In this document: piece after piece, positions 57,221 through 63,024 of the stretch
Layout: each line of letters begins with the position of its first letter
Position numbering within the stretch: position 1 is the first letter of the stretch
Assembly (NCBI RefSeq): GCF_014840935.1
Contig: NZ_CP062005.1
Span: forward strand, 2,914,001-2,978,000
Direction: 5' to 3'
From: Halomonas sp. YLGW01
GTDB lineage: Bacteria; Pseudomonadota; Gammaproteobacteria; Pseudomonadales; Halomonadaceae
DNA length: 64,000 bases
The notes under the pieces: model-generated
Databases searched by the model: none
Seen by the model: only the letters and a program-made list of their open reading frames with translations
What the model was told of the DNA's origin: nothing
Position numbers and translations under genes: made by a program

Positions 57221-58615
57221 TCAGTCGTCCTTCTTGGCCACGGCCTTGAAGCTGCTCGGCTCGAGGTCGTGACGCCCCAGCAGCTTGTAGAAGTCGGTGC
57301 GGTTGCGCCCGGCGATGCGGGCGGCCTGGGTGACGTTGCCCTCGGTGATCTTCAGCACCTTGATCAGATACCCCCGCTCGAAGCTCGCCCGGGCGTCGTT
57401 GAACGACGGCAGGGCGTTCTCCTCCGCCGCCAGCGCCTGAGCGACCAGGGCCTCGGGGATGATCGGTGCACTGGTCAGGGCCACGCACTGCTCGACCACG
57501 TTGACCAGCTGGCGCACGTTGCCGGGCCAGGCGCTTGCGGCCAGCAGGTTCAAGGCCTCGGTGGAGAACCCCTTGACGAAGGGCTTGTGGCGCGCCGCCG
57601 CCTTGGCGACCAGATGCTTGGCCAGAAGCGGCACGTCCTCGGCGCGCTCCTTGAGGGGCGGCAGGCGCAGGTTGACCACGTTGAGGCGATAGTAGAGATC
57701 TTCTCGAAAGTCGCCCTCGCGCATGGCCCGATCCAGGTCGCGATGGGTAGCCGAGATGATGCGCACGTCGATGGGGATCGAGGCGGTCGAGCCCAGCGGG
57801 CGGACCTGGCGCTCCTGCAGCACCCGCAGCAGCTTGACCTGCAGCGAGAGCGGCATGTCGCCGATCTCGTCGAGGAAAAGGCTGCCGCCGTCGGCGGCCT
57901 GGAACAGGCCCTCGTGCTGGCTGAAGGCGCCGGTGAAGGCGCCCTTGGCGTGGCCGAACAGCTCGCTCTCCAGCAACTGCTCGGGCAGGGCGCCGCAGTT
58001 GATGGCCACGAAGGGCTTGTCGGCGCGGGGGCTGGCATCGTGCAGGGCGCGAGCCAGCAGCTCCTTGCCCGAGCCCGAGGGGCCGCTGACCAGCACGCTG
58101 ACATCGGCGCCGGCGACCATCCGCGCCTGATCGAGGATCCGCTCCATCTGCGGGCTGCGGGTAATGATCGCCGAGCGCCAGGCATCGTCGCCGTCGGTCA
58201 CCGTCGGCGCCTGGGCCAGCGCCTCGTCGATCGCGGTGAACAGCTCCTCCCGGTCGATGGGCTTGGTCAGGAAGCTGAACACCCCCTGACGGGTGGCGCT
58301 CACCGCATCGGGGATCGAGCCATGGGCGGTGAGAATGATCACCGGCAGCCCCGGGGCCTGGCGCTGGATCTCCTGGAACAGCGCCAGGCCGTCCATCTCG
58401 TCCATGCGCAGGTCCGAGAGCACCAGGTCGGGGCGCTCGATGGCCAGGCGATCCAGTGCCATGCGGCCGCTGTCGGCGGTGGTGACGCGAAAGCCGCGGC
58501 TCTCCAGGCGCATGCCCAGCAGCCGCAACAGGCTGGCGTCGTCGTCGACCAGCAGGATATGCACGCCCGGCTTGCTCCCCTTCCGGGCACCGGTCAGTTG
58601 CACGGCGTCTTTCAC
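57221..58615 (-). CDS. glrR: Sigma-54-dependent response regulator GlrR (QseF)
   Basis: The 464-residue regulator has an N-terminal receiver (about 18-130; LVLSDLRMDEMDG carries the phosphorylated Asp, LTAH and FLTKP follow). A central AAA+ domain comes next (about 155-385; GPSGSGKELLARAL, GAFTGA for contact with sigma-54, GGSLFLDEIGDMPL). A C-terminal helix-turn-helix follows (GNVTQAARIAGRNRTDFYKLLGRH). In enterobacteria GlrR activates the GlmY small RNA from a sigma-54 promoter. GTG start preceded by GGGAAA. It is the third gene of the glrK-qseG-glrR operon. Confidence 0.94.
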   Translation of the reverse strand: MKDAVQLTGARKGSKPGVHILLVDDDASLLRLLGMRLESRGFRVTTADSGRMALDRLAIERPDLVLSDLRMDEMDGLALFQEIQRQAPGLPVIILTAHGSIPDAVSATRQGVFSFLTKPIDREELFTAIDEALAQAPTVTDGDDAWRSAIITRSPQMERILDQARMVAGADVSVLVSGPSGSGKELLARALHDASPRADKPFVAINCGALPEQLLESELFGHAKGAFTGAFSQHEGLFQAADGGSLFLDEIGDMPLSLQVKLLRVLQERQVRPLGSTASIPIDVRIISATHRDLDRAMREGDFREDLYYRLNVVNLRLPPLKERAEDVPLLAKHLVAKAAARHKPFVKGFSTEALNLLAASAWPGNVRQLVNVVEQCVALTSAPIIPEALVAQALAAEENALPSFNDARASFERGYLIKVLKITEGNVTQAARIAGRNRTDFYKLLGRHDLEPSSFKAVAKKDD

Positions 58616-58666: not shown

Positions 58667-59224
58667 TCAGGGCACCTGCTGTCGCAGGTTGATGCTTTGC
58701 TCGATGTCGCTCAGGGCCTCGAGCTTGTCGGTCAACTCCTCGAGCTTTTCGGCCTGGGCGGCGTTCTCGTCGGCCAGCGCCTGACGCGCCCGGCTCTGCT
58801 CCGCCAGCCGTCCGGCCTGGGCCCGGCGCCCCTCGAGCTCGTTGAGCCAGTAGCGCAGCAGGGGCTGCAGCTCGGCAGGGGCCTTGGCCAGGTCGGCCTT
58901 GTAGAGCTCCGAGGCCTGGTGCCATTCGCTCTCGGCACCCCAGGAGAGCACCACGGCGCGGGCCAGCCGGTCGCGGGTGTCGGTGGTCGCGAGGCGGGCC
59001 AGCTGGCGGTCGCGCCAGGCGCGGTCGCCGCGCTGGGAGGCGAGCCCCAGAGCCAGCCAGGCCTCGGTCTGGCAAGCGCTCACGGTGAGACTAGGCCCCT
59101 CGCCCTGGCAGTCGGCGGGCAGCTCGCTGAGCGTCGGCGGCGGTGAGGACGACTGAGCCGGCAGCCACTGGCAGCCCGCCAGCAGCGAGGCCGCCACCAG
59201 CCCCGTCAGGGTGCGGTACAACAT
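58667..59224 (-). CDS. qseG: QseG-type lipoprotein
   Basis: The 185-residue product begins MLYRTLTGLVAASLLAG-C, a lipoprotein signal. The mature part is helical with a C-terminal coiled coil (AQAEKLEELTDKLEALSDIE). In E. coli QseG binds the sensor GlrK and raises its activity. Its place between glrK (three bases upstream) and glrR supports the name more than the weakly conserved sequence does. Confidence 0.85.
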   Translation of the reverse strand: MLYRTLTGLVAASLLAGCQWLPAQSSSPPPTLSELPADCQGEGPSLTVSACQTEAWLALGLASQRGDRAWRDRQLARLATTDTRDRLARAVVLSWGAESEWHQASELYKADLAKAPAELQPLLRYWLNELEGRRAQAGRLAEQSRARQALADENAAQAEKLEELTDKLEALSDIEQSINLRQQVP

Positions 59225-59227
59225 GAG

Positions 59228-60733
59228 TCATGAGTTCCTTGCGTCTGCGCCCACCGCCCGGCGCTGCGGTGACGGCGTCGTTATCGTATTCGTGTCCTGT
59301 TGATTCAGGCCATGCCAGGGCAGGGTCAGGCGGAAGCACACCGCCAGGCGCGCATCGTCGACCAGCTCCAGGTGGCCCTGCTGGGCCTTGGCACAGTCGG
59401 CAGCCACCGACAGGCCGATCCCGGAGCCCTTGAGCGGCCCCTTGCGTCGGGCGCGCCCCTGATAGAAGGGATCGAAGAGCCGTTCCCGGTCCTCGGCGCC
59501 GATCGCCTCGCCGCTGTTGGCGACCTCCAGGCGCAATACATCGCCCCGCTGCTGGGCACGCAGCTCCAGCCGGCCACCATCCTCGCCGTAGGCGATGGCA
59601 TTGGACAACAGGTTGTCGAGAATGCGCCCGGTGGCGGTGCGATCGGCCTGCCAATCGAGGGGCCGGTCGCGCCATCTAAGCTGCATGCCCTTGGCATCGA
59701 GGGCCAGCCGATGCTTGGCCAGCAGCTCCTTGATCAGCGTCGTCACATCGAAACGACTGACGCTGACTTCGGCATGATGCTGGAGCAGGTTGTAGTCGAG
59801 CAGCTGTTCGATGAGGCGCTGAAGCTCCTCGCCGCTGGCCTCGATCAGCTCGAGAATCTCATGCTGACGGGGCGTCAGCTCGCCGGCCACGCCGTCGGAC
59901 AGCAGAGCCGTGCCCTCGCGCACGCTTGCCAGCGGCGTCTTCAGTTCGTGGGACATGTGGCGCAGGAACTGGCGTTTCTGCGCCTCCAGCTCATCGAGCC
60001 GCGCCGACAGCCAGTCGAGCCGCTCATCGAGCTGCACCAGCTCGGCCGGTCCCTGCAGGGTCTGAGCCGGGGCCGGCGCGCCGCTGCTGCCCAGGCTGAG
60101 GATACGCCGCTCGAGCTGGCGAATCGGGCGGATGATCAGCCAGGTGAACAACAGCATCAGCAAAAGGCTCGCCGAGACCAGCGCCGTGGTCTGCACCCAG
60201 AGGCGGGTCTGCACGCCGCCGGCCTGATCGCGGATGCGCTCGATGCGCTCGTCGATGTGCCGGTTGGTGGCCTGGCGAACGGCCTCGGTGCGCTCGGCAA
60301 AGGGCACGAAGTCATCGAGCCGCGCCTGGATCTGAGGCACGGGAGCCTCGAGCAGGGTCTTGAGGCCCTCGATGCGCTCGGCCAGCGCCCGGGCGTCGGG
60401 GTTGTCGGGTAACAGCAGGCGCTGCTGGGCCAGCAGCGCCTGGAATTCGCTGGCCCGCTGGGTGTAGATCTCGCGCAGGCCGGGTTCCTCGAGCACCGCA
60501 TACTGGCGGGCGCTGCGCTCCATCTCCACGGCCAGCGACGACAGCGCCCGCGCCCGGCGGGTCTCCTCGACCGCCTGACGCGCACTGACATCGGCCAGGC
60601 GGGTGAGCTCGGACAGCGCCTGGCCGGCCTGGTACATCAGGACGCCCAGCGGCAGCATCACGACCAGGAAGGCCAGCAGCACGAGCTGCAGCAGGGAGCG
60701 GGGACGCCAGCGGCGCGAGACCTGAGTGGTCAT
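59228..60733 (-). CDS. glrK: Sensor histidine kinase GlrK (QseE)
   Basis: The 501-residue inner-membrane kinase has a first helix (about 15-37), a helical periplasmic region (about 40-180), a second helix (about 185-205) and a HAMP linker. The kinase core follows: HMSHELKTPLASVREG with the phosphorylated His, NLLSNAIAYGEDGG, and GIGLSVAADCAKAQQG for ATP. Envelope stress is the likely signal, through QseG. The start at 60733 lacks a strong ribosome site; an ATG 13 codons upstream (60772) is an alternative. Confidence 0.93.
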   Translation of the reverse strand: MTTQVSRRWRPRSLLQLVLLAFLVVMLPLGVLMYQAGQALSELTRLADVSARQAVEETRRARALSSLAVEMERSARQYAVLEEPGLREIYTQRASEFQALLAQQRLLLPDNPDARALAERIEGLKTLLEAPVPQIQARLDDFVPFAERTEAVRQATNRHIDERIERIRDQAGGVQTRLWVQTTALVSASLLLMLLFTWLIIRPIRQLERRILSLGSSGAPAPAQTLQGPAELVQLDERLDWLSARLDELEAQKRQFLRHMSHELKTPLASVREGTALLSDGVAGELTPRQHEILELIEASGEELQRLIEQLLDYNLLQHHAEVSVSRFDVTTLIKELLAKHRLALDAKGMQLRWRDRPLDWQADRTATGRILDNLLSNAIAYGEDGGRLELRAQQRGDVLRLEVANSGEAIGAEDRERLFDPFYQGRARRKGPLKGSGIGLSVAADCAKAQQGHLELVDDARLAVCFRLTLPWHGLNQQDTNTITTPSPQRRAVGADARNS

Positions 60734-60886
60734 GACAAGGGTTCTTTGCAGAAGAAATTGGGACGTTGTCATTGGCTTACCACTGCAGGATACCAGAGAT
60801 GCCTGCGACGGCCGCGACCTTTCGTGGCCCGAGCCATAGCGAAGGACCGCGAGGGAGAAGCCCCTGGGCGGTGCCACACGATAGGC

Positions 60887-60914
60887 AAAAAAAGAGGGCC
60901 GGCAGAGCCGGCCC
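60887..60914 (-). terminator. Rho-independent terminator upstream of glrK
   Basis: On the minus strand GGGCCGGC and GCCGGCCC form a perfect stem around three bases, followed by CTC and then seven T. No protein gene ends just before it, so it implies an RNA transcribed from the region 60920-61340 towards glrK. Confidence 0.8.
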
Positions 60915-61333
60915 AATACGCAGGGAACTTAAGGGTGAAACAATGTCGGGGGCAGTCGCGTCTGGCCGCACTGATCGACATTCTTTCCGGGCCGAAGCCC
61001 CGAAGTCACACGACGGTGTCGTCACTCGCCAGAAGCTGGCCATCGTGCCGGGGACGCATCCCCACTTCGTTCAGGTGGCGGCGCCGCTTGCGCGTCGCTG
61101 CCGGATTCAGCCCCCGAGGGGGCGAGGCATCCTTGCCGGGAGCATCCTTGCCCGTAGCGGTACCCTTCCTTGCCTGTCGGCGGTACCCGTCTCATCGCTA
61201 CATCAGTCACACATCGCGTGGAGCAGACGCGGACCGACCCGATCGGGTGACATGCACAGGGTAGTAGATGCGCCCTGCCGGATCGGCCAGGAAGCGGTTC
61301 GAGCCGTGAAGAACCGCCTCCCTTGCTTGCTCG
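60887..61333 (-). ncRNA. Candidate small RNA upstream of glrK
   Basis: The stretch between a sigma-54-like promoter (61345-61359) and a strong terminator (60887-60914) has no convincing protein gene on either strand. It contains a long hairpin: AATGTCG (60942-60948) pairs with CGACATT (60976-60982), with inner pairing CAGT/ACTG. Three GGCAAGGA motifs lie at about 61125-61180 on the minus strand. In E. coli the GlrR-controlled RNA GlmY is encoded at this same place, upstream of glrK. The sequence itself does not resemble GlmY to my eye, and the predicted length of about 440 bases is greater. Confidence 0.4.
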
Positions 61334-61344
61334 CCAAACATATA

Positions 61345-61359
61345 GCGAGACGCGTGCCA
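61345..61359 (-). promoter_or_regulatory. Putative sigma-54 promoter
   Basis: On the minus strand TGGCACG (-24) is followed after four bases by TCGC at the -12 position; the consensus is TGGCACG-N4-TTGC. The -24 element is perfect and the -12 element has one mismatch. It points towards the candidate RNA and glrK. Confidence 0.55.
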
Positions 61360-61427
61360 ATAAATACCAAAATTCTTGTTTTTCAGTAGCTTAAAAAACA
61401 CTCTGCCATGCCAACCGAGCCTGTTCG

Positions 61428-61581
61428 TGTCACAACCGGGACAACGGCGAACAGATAACGCGGATTTCGTCTCCACTAAGAGACACTCTGACGGGGATAA
61501 CCAAAAATTCCTTAAATATCATGATCTTGCAATGTATCGATTTGGCGACAGAAGAACCGCCCAGTGTCGCCAACGGCGACA
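61428..61581 (-). promoter_or_regulatory. TGTC/GACA palindromes upstream of the sigma-54-like promoter
   Basis: TGTC-N8-GACA (61428-61443) and TGTC-N9-GACA inside TGTCGCC-AAC-GGCGACA (61565-61581) lie about 70 and 205 bases upstream of the -24 element. A further GTCTC-N6-GAGAC lies between them at 61469-61484. GlrR sites in enterobacteria are TGTC-N10-GACA, so the half-sites fit but the spacing does not fully. Confidence 0.4.
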
Positions 61582-61642
61582 CAGGCGACCGGGGCGGCGC
61601 CACAGGGGCGCACCGGCCGGGCGATGACCCAGCCGGCCGGCC

Positions 61643-62956
61643 TTAGCTCAGGGTCTTGAGCAGGATCTTCGACTTGCGGGCGTGATTGTAGGCGTCCCGC
61701 TTGAGCGGTGGCAGGGCGTCGATCTCGGCGAGCCCGAAGCCATGCTCGATGAACCAGTGGGCGGTGTGGGTGGTGAGCGCGAACATGGCGACGAGTCCCC
61801 GGCGCCGGGCCCGGCGCTCCACCTCGGCCAGCAGCCGCTCGCCGCGATGGCCGCCCCGGTAGTCGCCATGCACCGCCACGCAGGCCAGCTCCCCCATGCG
61901 GGCGTCCGGGAACTCGTGCAGGGCGGCGCAGCCGATGATCATGCCGTCGCGCTCGGTGACCAGATAGTCCTCGATCTCGTGCTCGAGGCGCTCCCGGGAA
62001 CGCGGCACCAGCATGCCGCGCCGCTCCAGGGGCTCGAGCAGCTCGAGCAGGCCGCCGACGTCGCCGAGCTCGGCGTCGCGCAGCTGTTCGTAGCGATGCT
62101 CGGTGATCATGGTGCCGACCCCGTCGCGGGTGAACAGCTCACCGAGCAGGGCGTCGTCGTCATGCCAAGACAGCAGGTGGGTACGGGCCACGCCGTGGCG
62201 CGCCGCGGCGCAGGCCGCCGCCAGGTGGCGGGAAAGTTCGCTACCCGGGCTCGCCGCCTGCAGCAGCGGCTCGGCCTCGGCCGGCGTCAGCTGGCGCTGC
62301 AGGGCGCCGCTCGCATCATGCAGGCCCTCGGCCTCGCCGAGCAGCACCAGCTTGTCGGCCCCGAGCGCCACCGCGGCCTGCTGGGCGACCTCGGCGGCGT
62401 CCAGATCGAACACCTCACCGGTACTCGAGAACCCGAGCGGCGGCAGCACCACCAGAGAGCCCTGGTCGAGCAGGGCATCGATCGCCTCGGCGCGCACCCG
62501 GCGCACCTCGCCGCTGCGCGCGAAGTCCAGCCCGTTGCGCACCCCCAGCGGCTTGGCCATCACCAGGTTGCCGGAGACCGCCGTCAGCTCGATGCCGTGC
62601 AGTGGCGTATTGGGCAGCCCCAGCGACAAGCGCGCCTCGAACCACAGCCGCTGCTCGGCGGCGACACGCTCGACCCGGGCCATGATGGCGTCATCCGCCA
62701 CCCAGCGACCCGCCTCGCGGCGCGGCGTGATGCCCTCCTCGGCCAGCGCCGCGTTGACCTGGGGACGTATGCCGAACACCAGCACCAGCCGCACCCCCAG
62801 GGTATGCAGCAGTGCCAGGTCCTGAATCAGCGACTCGCGGTGCCCCGCCGCCATCGCCTCGCCCTCGATCAGCACCACGAAGGTTCGCCCGCGGTGGGCG
62901 TTGATGTAGGGCGATGACTGACGAAACCACTCGACGAAGGGAAAACGCGTGTTCAA
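61643..62956 (-). CDS. argA: N-acetylglutamate synthase
   Basis: ArgA makes N-acetylglutamate from glutamate and acetyl-CoA, the first step to arginine, and is normally inhibited by arginine. The 437-residue product has an amino-acid-kinase-like N-terminal domain (about 20-285; VVLIEGEAM, LVLVFGIRPQVNAAL) and a C-terminal GNAT domain (about 295-437; CVAVHGDYRGGHRGERLLAEV). The start is TTG at 62956, preceded by GGAG, giving LNTRFPFVEWFRQSSPYINA as in the family. The last residues KSKILLKTLS are also typical. Confidence 0.95.
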   Translation of the reverse strand: MNTRFPFVEWFRQSSPYINAHRGRTFVVLIEGEAMAAGHRESLIQDLALLHTLGVRLVLVFGIRPQVNAALAEEGITPRREAGRWVADDAIMARVERVAAEQRLWFEARLSLGLPNTPLHGIELTAVSGNLVMAKPLGVRNGLDFARSGEVRRVRAEAIDALLDQGSLVVLPPLGFSSTGEVFDLDAAEVAQQAAVALGADKLVLLGEAEGLHDASGALQRQLTPAEAEPLLQAASPGSELSRHLAAACAAARHGVARTHLLSWHDDDALLGELFTRDGVGTMITEHRYEQLRDAELGDVGGLLELLEPLERRGMLVPRSRERLEHEIEDYLVTERDGMIIGCAALHEFPDARMGELACVAVHGDYRGGHRGERLLAEVERRARRRGLVAMFALTTHTAHWFIEHGFGLAEIDALPPLKRDAYNHARKSKILLKTLS

Positions 62957-63024
62957 GGGCCGCACTCCGGCAGCTGGAGGGTGAAAAGGGCCGTGGCCCA
63001 CCTGGATTGACTATATCAGAGGGC

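Follow-up and report, generated by a model that had tools for sequence, protein, structure and literature searches.

A GlrR-type sigma-54 promoter upstream of glrK in Halomonadaceae precedes a putative CsrA-sequestering RNA

What kind of RNA, if any, is made between argA and glrK in this Halomonas genome? The window, a 64,000-nucleotide stretch (G000:C1:2914001-2978000) of a single-contig 3.45 Mb genome, carries on its minus strand, in this order, argA, an intergenic stretch (61642-60734), glrK, a qseG-like gene and glrR. A sequence-only reading of the intergenic stretch had pointed to a sigma-54-like promoter and a terminator-ended non-coding RNA and had asked whether this RNA is an analogue of GlmY or a new RNA controlled by GlrR. 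We confirmed the underlying observation, a sigma-54 promoter and a terminator-framed non-coding stretch beside glrK. The arrangement is that of E. coli glmY, where, according to PMC6075780, QseF (GlrR) occupies three TGTN12ACA sites ahead of a sigma-54 promoter with the aid of IHF. The genes of the locus are as follows.

61643..62959, minus strand: argA, upstream neighbor of the RNA; its start is possibly at 63001
59228..60733, minus strand: glrK, sensor histidine kinase with HisKA and HATPase_c domains, named from its position before glrR
58667..59224, minus strand: qseG-like lipoprotein gene, named from its position and an apparent lipobox (our own reading)
57221..58615, minus strand: glrR, sigma-54 activator (NCBIfam equivalog NF011695, 804 bits against a cut-off of 763)

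By the score of GlrR, which exceeds the NF011695 cut-off, a GlrK/GlrR orthologue is encoded beside the RNA. No NCBIfam model was above its cut-off among the 25 matches listed for the glrK product, and the product of the qseG-like gene had no family match in NCBIfam or in the domain search. RpoN is encoded in the same genome. The promoter and the sites upstream of it are listed below.

61344..61359, minus strand: sigma-54 promoter, TGGCACG-N4-TCGCT (-24/-12), recognized by conservation and one mismatch from the consensus
61533..61550, minus strand: GlrR-type upstream site, TGT-N12-ACA, about -190 from the promoter TGG
61468..61485, minus strand: GlrR-type upstream site TGTCTCTTAGTGGAGACG, about -126, one mismatch to TGTN12ACA
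61565..61581, minus strand: palindrome TGTCGCCGTTGGCGACA, spacing one base under the consensus, a possible third upstream site
61428..61443, minus strand: palindrome TGTCCCGGTTGTGACA, spacing two bases under the consensus, a weak candidate site

Both the TGGCACG -24 element with its near -12 box and the TGTC/GACA palindromes had been noticed in the sequence-only reading, at coordinates that proved correct. A scan of the window with the consensus TGGCACR-N4-TTGCW, allowing up to two mismatches, gave 18 matches against 18.5 expected, three of the 18 having one mismatch; a single -24/-12 match is therefore unexceptional here, and the reality of the promoter rests on its conservation. The argA-glrK locus was found by DNA search in 27 of 58 genomes, all of them Halomonadaceae and our own included, with a glrK match downstream of the RNA locus in all 27. 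Between argA and glrK the first pattern detected a sigma-54-type site in 26 of these loci; a wider pattern added the site TGGCACGACTTTGGCT of the 27th (G020), making 27 of 27. At one locus (L022) the first pattern caught a different site, and the aligned promoter is TGGCACGCCTTTGGCA.

Upstream sites were counted before 27 promoters (26 loci and the paralogue L031) and compared to mononucleotide shuffles, which kept single-base composition only. Exact TGTN12ACA occurred 20 times versus 2.0 in the shuffles, and 74 times versus 34.3 when one mismatch was allowed. With at most one mismatch, 23 of the 27 promoters have the site between -180 and -192 and 16 have it between -114 and -127. The spacing of the TGTCGCCGTTGGCGACA-type palindrome recurs in L002-L005; that of TGTCCCGGTTGTGACA, in its exact form, was seen only at the window's own locus among the 27 listed. 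With up to one mismatch allowed, IHF-like sequences occur in the 130 bases before 20 of the 27 promoters, mostly at -33/-34, a raw count without a shuffle baseline, and none precedes the window's own promoter within that distance.

Promoter and terminator together define the predicted RNA, whose start was placed 12 nt past the -12 GC and whose end is the T run at 60887.

60887..61333, minus strand: predicted non-coding RNA, 447 nt, extent set by promoter and terminator
60887..60914, minus strand: intrinsic terminator, hairpin 60914-60896 followed by TCTTTTTTT
61289..61322, minus strand: long 5' hairpin, from the predicted fold and covariation

The predicted length is 407 to 560 in 25 of 26 loci and 152 in L025. 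The strong T-tailed terminator and the long hairpin, both described earlier from the sequence, were found again; the hairpin covaries in 13 loci (alignment A4), which were selected by eye for having it, so that its covariation tells nothing about other loci. Folding of the whole RNA was only modestly better than that of shuffled sequences (z -2.0; 3 of 100 shuffles as good). No plasmid copies of the stretch were found.

The conserved part of the RNA is a core containing three ANGGA sites, for which we built a model (R1).

61125..61229, minus strand: conserved core, modeled as R1, including GCGATGAGAC at 61198-61189
61159..61187, minus strand: helix 1, GGUAC...GUACC around an inner GCC/GGC helix; its internal loop holds the first ANGGA site, AAGGA, in the 3' strand
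61140..61153, minus strand: CsrA-type hairpin GGGC-AAGGAU-GCUC, with an ANGGAN hexaloop
61126..61137, minus strand: CsrA-type hairpin GGC-AAGGAU-GCC, with an ANGGAN hexaloop

Thus two of the three sites in the window's RNA are ANGGAN hexaloops on C-G-closed stems. A high-affinity Csr/Rsm (CsrA/RsmE) site is described, in PMC4005645 and PMC7652899, as an ANGGAX hexaloop sitting directly on a stem, with N and X looped out and variable. Each glrK-locus RNA has 3 to 5 ANGGA motifs in 25 of 26 loci, and L025 has none. Over the 26 transcripts we counted 52 ANGGAN hairpins (at least 3 bp) versus 3.0 in dinucleotide shuffles and 96 ANGGA motifs versus 44.8. For the window's RNA alone, two hexaloop hairpins were equaled by 0.6% of 3000 shuffles.

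Covariation in relatives, proposed earlier as a check on the RNA, bears out the core. Alignment A1 took 23 of the 26 cores (L002, L004 and L007 were omitted for being near-copies; L025 and L026 contributed no core), and removal of L020 and L027 left the 21 sequences of alignment A2. From the 21-sequence core alignment, with no structure supplied, RNAalifold predicted 24 pairs, which include helix 1, its inner helix and a four-pair and a three-pair hairpin, the last two both closing ANGGAN hexaloops. In 15 core pairs, 99.7% of cells are paired and 5 of the 15 pairs have changed on both sides; neither value was matched by any of 500 shuffles. In a set of 59 distinct rows aligned by the model, both sides have changed in 13 of 15 pairs; this alignment leans towards the structure and includes seven weak matches. 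Among 52 distinct cores (from the 62 best of 69 model matches, searched in 84 loci), loop 2 and loop 3 are each ANGGAN in all 52 by alignment column and the helix-1 strand holds ANGGA in all 52, one row being shifted by a base; this invariance is partly selected, because R1 itself favors ANGGA. The N positions of the loops vary (AAGGAT, AAGGAC, ATGGAT, ACGGAC and others). The conserved anatomy suggests a CsrA-binding RNA, not GlmY.

Our preferred reading, to which we give a probability of about 0.75, is that the stretch encodes a member of a GlrR/sigma-54-controlled family of CsrA-sequestering RNAs of Halomonadaceae working like CsrB/RsmZ. CsrA was found in 38 of 38 genomes, with the CsrA sequence of our own genome among them. 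Transcription, GlrR binding, CsrA binding and sequestration as the outcome are here inferred from sequence. In the proposed mechanism GlrK, assisted by the lipoprotein, would phosphorylate GlrR; the first steps are modeled on QseE/QseG/QseF of E. coli as described in PMC6075780. GlrR on the TGTN12ACA sites, probably with help from IHF, would then activate sigma-54 RNA polymerase at the -24/-12 promoter, and transcription would continue for about 447 nt up to the intrinsic terminator. The RNA would offer a CsrA dimer two tandem ANGGAN hexaloops and a third ANGGA in helix 1; as it accumulated it would titrate CsrA and free CsrA-repressed mRNAs, an outcome predicted from the sequence only. E. coli CsrB has far more ANGGA motifs than the 3 to 5 counted here, so titration would demand an abundant RNA.

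The RNA resembles CsrB/CsrC and RsmX/Y/Z in carrying several ANGGA motifs within the loops of hairpins whose stems are closed by C-G, and in being intergenic, terminator-ended and often present in several copies per genome, traits of those RNAs described in PMC4005645 and PMC11882849. It differs in its few sites, its extra conserved linker and the 3' module that it shares with other RNAs. It differs also in control, since CsrB/CsrC and RsmX/Y/Z are driven by UvrY/GacA and the Halomonadaceae RNA is predicted to be driven from a sigma-54, GlrR-type promoter; PMC7652899 ties the known gammaproteobacterial CsrA-sequestering RNAs to UvrY/GacA. No Rfam Csr/Rsm family reached its gathering score in the window, and none matched the stretch at E up to 10 or nine loci at E up to 0.1; these nine, five of them off-locus, gave no Rfam match of any kind at that limit. 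What is new is a putative CsrA-binding RNA under an unusual activator, and it is a member of no described Rfam family. CrcZ of Pseudomonas is a sigma-54-driven protein-sponge RNA under a two-component system, and in these respects the Halomonadaceae RNA would be like it; CrcZ differs in acting on Hfq/Crc through A-rich motifs under the control of CbrB. In open-access literature on Halomonas and Chromohalobacter CsrA, small RNAs, GlmY and GlrR, searched by titles and abstract openings with most subscription journals outside its scope, no such RNA was described.

The 3' end of the RNA raises a second possibility.

60917..60929, minus strand: 3' module AGUUCCCUGCGUA, common to other sigma-54 RNAs of relatives

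The RNA might be a dual-function or mainly base-pairing small RNA in which the C/U-rich module CCCUUCAGUUCCCUGCGUACCUU, adjoining the terminator, serves as the seed; CsrA would then act on the RNA as a modulator instead of being sequestered by it. PMC7652899 proposes both CsrA binding and base pairing for McaS of E. coli, and the likeness to McaS lies in this possible combination, the sequence relation having been compared through Rfam only. No other part of the RNA is shared so widely. Exact copies of AGTTCCYTGCGTA occur in 93 of 121 family genomes, with two or more copies in some, although part of this number is perhaps due to chance, because a reversed-pattern control also matches. We examined 34 off-locus places from the AGTTCCYTGCGTA list, taken from genomes with more than one match or without a known argA-glrK match, each of them either not the genome's best core match or from a genome without one. 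A sigma-54 site and a terminator are present at 13 of the 34, where the module accompanies different RNA bodies. At least one hexaloop hairpin occurs at 11 of these 13 places versus none of the other 21, and exact TGTN12ACA within 620 bases at 8 of the 13 versus none of the 21. Promoter and 3' module occur with no hexaloop hairpin in two of the 13 off-locus RNAs (L114 and L126) and in the glrK-locus RNA of G027 (L025/L142), so the module may have a job of its own; its retention even in RNAs lacking CsrA hairpins leaves room for a second, base-pairing function. Against base pairing as the main role, the sole target tried, glmS, was unremarkable in the duplex test described below, the hexaloops are kept just as strictly within the glrK-locus class, and 21 of the 34 off-locus pattern matches are unlike such RNAs. 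We consider this explanation unlikely.

Could the RNA be of the GlmY/GlmZ type after all, a RapZ decoy controlling glmS? Its place upstream of glrK-qseG-glrR, its sigma-54 promoter and its TGTN12ACA sites are those of glmY, and RapZ, which might therefore still bind the RNA, is encoded in 37 of 38 genomes, our own (with both domains) included. The RNA itself is longer than GlmY (RF00128), has CsrA-type loops and matches no Rfam family. RF00128 was found in none of 38 genomes and GlmZ (RF00083) in none above cut-off, and neither matched the stretch at E up to 10; GlmY/GlmZ homology was accordingly rejected. Of the alternatives offered by the sequence-only reading, a new GlrR-type RNA is supported, with conserved promoter and terminator and enriched upstream sites, and GlmY at the RNA level is not supported. 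Pairing with glmS, which had also been suggested as a check, was assessed by crude duplex energies against mononucleotide shuffles, and none of 14 RNA/glmS pairs was beyond 2 standard deviations. Three of the 14 (L001, L014 and L027) were 1.2 to 1.9 standard deviations below the shuffles, but the 3' segment of the RNA was never more than 1 standard deviation better in any of the 14 pairs. The glmS gene itself was found in 29 of 29 genomes, in 28 above cut-off. A role as RapZ decoy thus appears very improbable. Here a position and promoter shared with glmY go with another RNA, which shows how these two features by themselves can mislead.

The one sub-threshold GlmZ match in the 38 genomes is in G020 (L032, G020:C1:3185641-3185773; 26.9 bits against 60), at a place that R1 does not report. 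In the stretch, seven weak Rfam matches (BASRCI337, mmgR, sbrA and isrL among them) were all under their gathering scores and were set aside. That to BASRCI337, a Brucella sRNA, lies at 60759-60919 of the window on the plus strand (E 0.0012; 24 bits against 229) and overlaps the terminator of the RNA, read on the opposite strand; it is probably due to chance.

Instead of encoding a separate RNA, the stretch might act on the glrK-qseG-glrR operon as its regulated leader or attenuator. Only 153 bases separate the end of the terminator from the start of glrK, so that read-through would yield autoregulation, and glmY-qseE-qseG-qseF form an operon in Proteus mirabilis, as reported in PMC8745638. 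The terminator is strong, though, and RNAs with a like promoter and 3' end sit also away from the genome's best core match, and we give an attenuator very little credence.

There remains a chance association of a promoter-like site with hairpins, or a small protein gene, which we dismiss: single -24/-12 matches are common in the window and frames of at least 20 codons are alike at the protein level in up to 16 of 26 loci, but promoter, stems and loops are conserved and the length of the frame from the core ATG is not, so that the protein-level similarity is best ascribed to nucleotide conservation. Read from the first GCG-ATG, this frame is 3 codons long at seven loci belonging to the window's genus, a single codon long in L017 and 6 to 111 codons long elsewhere; it is absent from three loci, and at a few loci a different ATG may have been taken as its start. 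With no conserved frame among the loci compared, the earlier impression that the stretch lacks a convincing gene holds.

The RNA is largely a property of the family. The 103-nt core model R1 matches 78 of 121 family genomes, leaving 43 without a core match. In a sample of 293 genomes of the order it matches six, five of them Halomonadaceae and the sixth only weakly; both searches used stricter filters, able to lose weak matches. The weak match (G351; 28.9 bits) diverges from the core and appears to be due to chance. An exact core pattern occurs in 67 contigs, about 58 of which are named Onishia, Chromohalobacter, Salinicola, Cobetia, Billgrantia, Modicisalibacter, Litchfieldella, Aidingimonas, Bisbaumannia, Halomonas or MAGs so named, genera listed under Halomonadaceae. 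Four contigs bear names of other groups and one is named only 'Gammaproteobacteria bacterium'; the four (L153, L165, L182 and L198) have no R1 match above 10.4 bits and were discounted as chance. Twelve family genomes without a core match were searched for GlrK. Seven have it, and at E 1e-40 it was absent from the other five (G010, G016, G029, G069 and G128). Three of the seven (G020, G027 and G036) carry at the locus a sigma-54 RNA with the 3' module; in G008, G021, G022 and G023 no convincing RNA was seen in the stretches scanned upstream of glrK.

Our own genome has one core match and one exact copy of the 3' module. Further RNA copies are L033, L034 and L035, L034 having a weaker promoter match (TGGCCCACTTATCGCA), and the paralogue L031 has the promoter CGGCATG-GTTT-TGGCA together with TGTC-N10-GACA. 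In G014 the first RNA and glrK are separated by a second sigma-54 RNA in tandem (L036, about 780-1040), which has the same 3' module. L126 (in G134) and L142 (in G027) are short sigma-54 RNAs with 3' module and terminator and without a CsrA-type hairpin. An off-locus sigma-54 RNA of G134 (L127) has seven ANGGA motifs and is the most CsrB-like of the set.

If CsrA sequestration is the correct reading, it would link envelope sensing to the global Csr switch through a sigma-54 activator. GlrR is such an activator in E. coli, where it serves cell-envelope homeostasis, and some Halomonadaceae are industrial production strains. UvrY/GacA (NF007018) was above cut-off in 21 of 38 genomes, ours among them. 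The GacA/UvrY box is TGTAAG-N-CTTACA; in a search for exact forms only, with spacing 6-7, none was found in our own genome. Of 25 family genomes searched, seven (G013, G015, G018, G020, G021, G022 and G023) have no UvrY/GacA match above 200 bits. The RNA core or a variant RNA with the 3' module is present in the first four of these, and since they have no such UvrY/GacA match, Csr may there be governed chiefly by GlrR. More tentatively, at odds that we put slightly below even, the GlrR/sigma-54 promoter before glrK would be an old cassette whose cargo was swapped by lineage, enterobacteria having GlmY, Halomonadaceae a CsrA sponge and another family of the order a small EF-hand protein. Multi-copy spread in Halomonadaceae would have put the Csr regulon under the envelope-sensing GlrK/GlrR, replacing GacA where it is missing.

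In G041, from another family of the order, a stretch upstream of the glrK orthologue (L107, about 878-1434), of which no plasmid copies were found, contains TGTCGCCAATCGGGAACA, TGGCACAAGCTCTGCA, a 90-codon frame and a terminator. In this one genome, Pfam EF-hand models match the 90-codon frame above cut-off.
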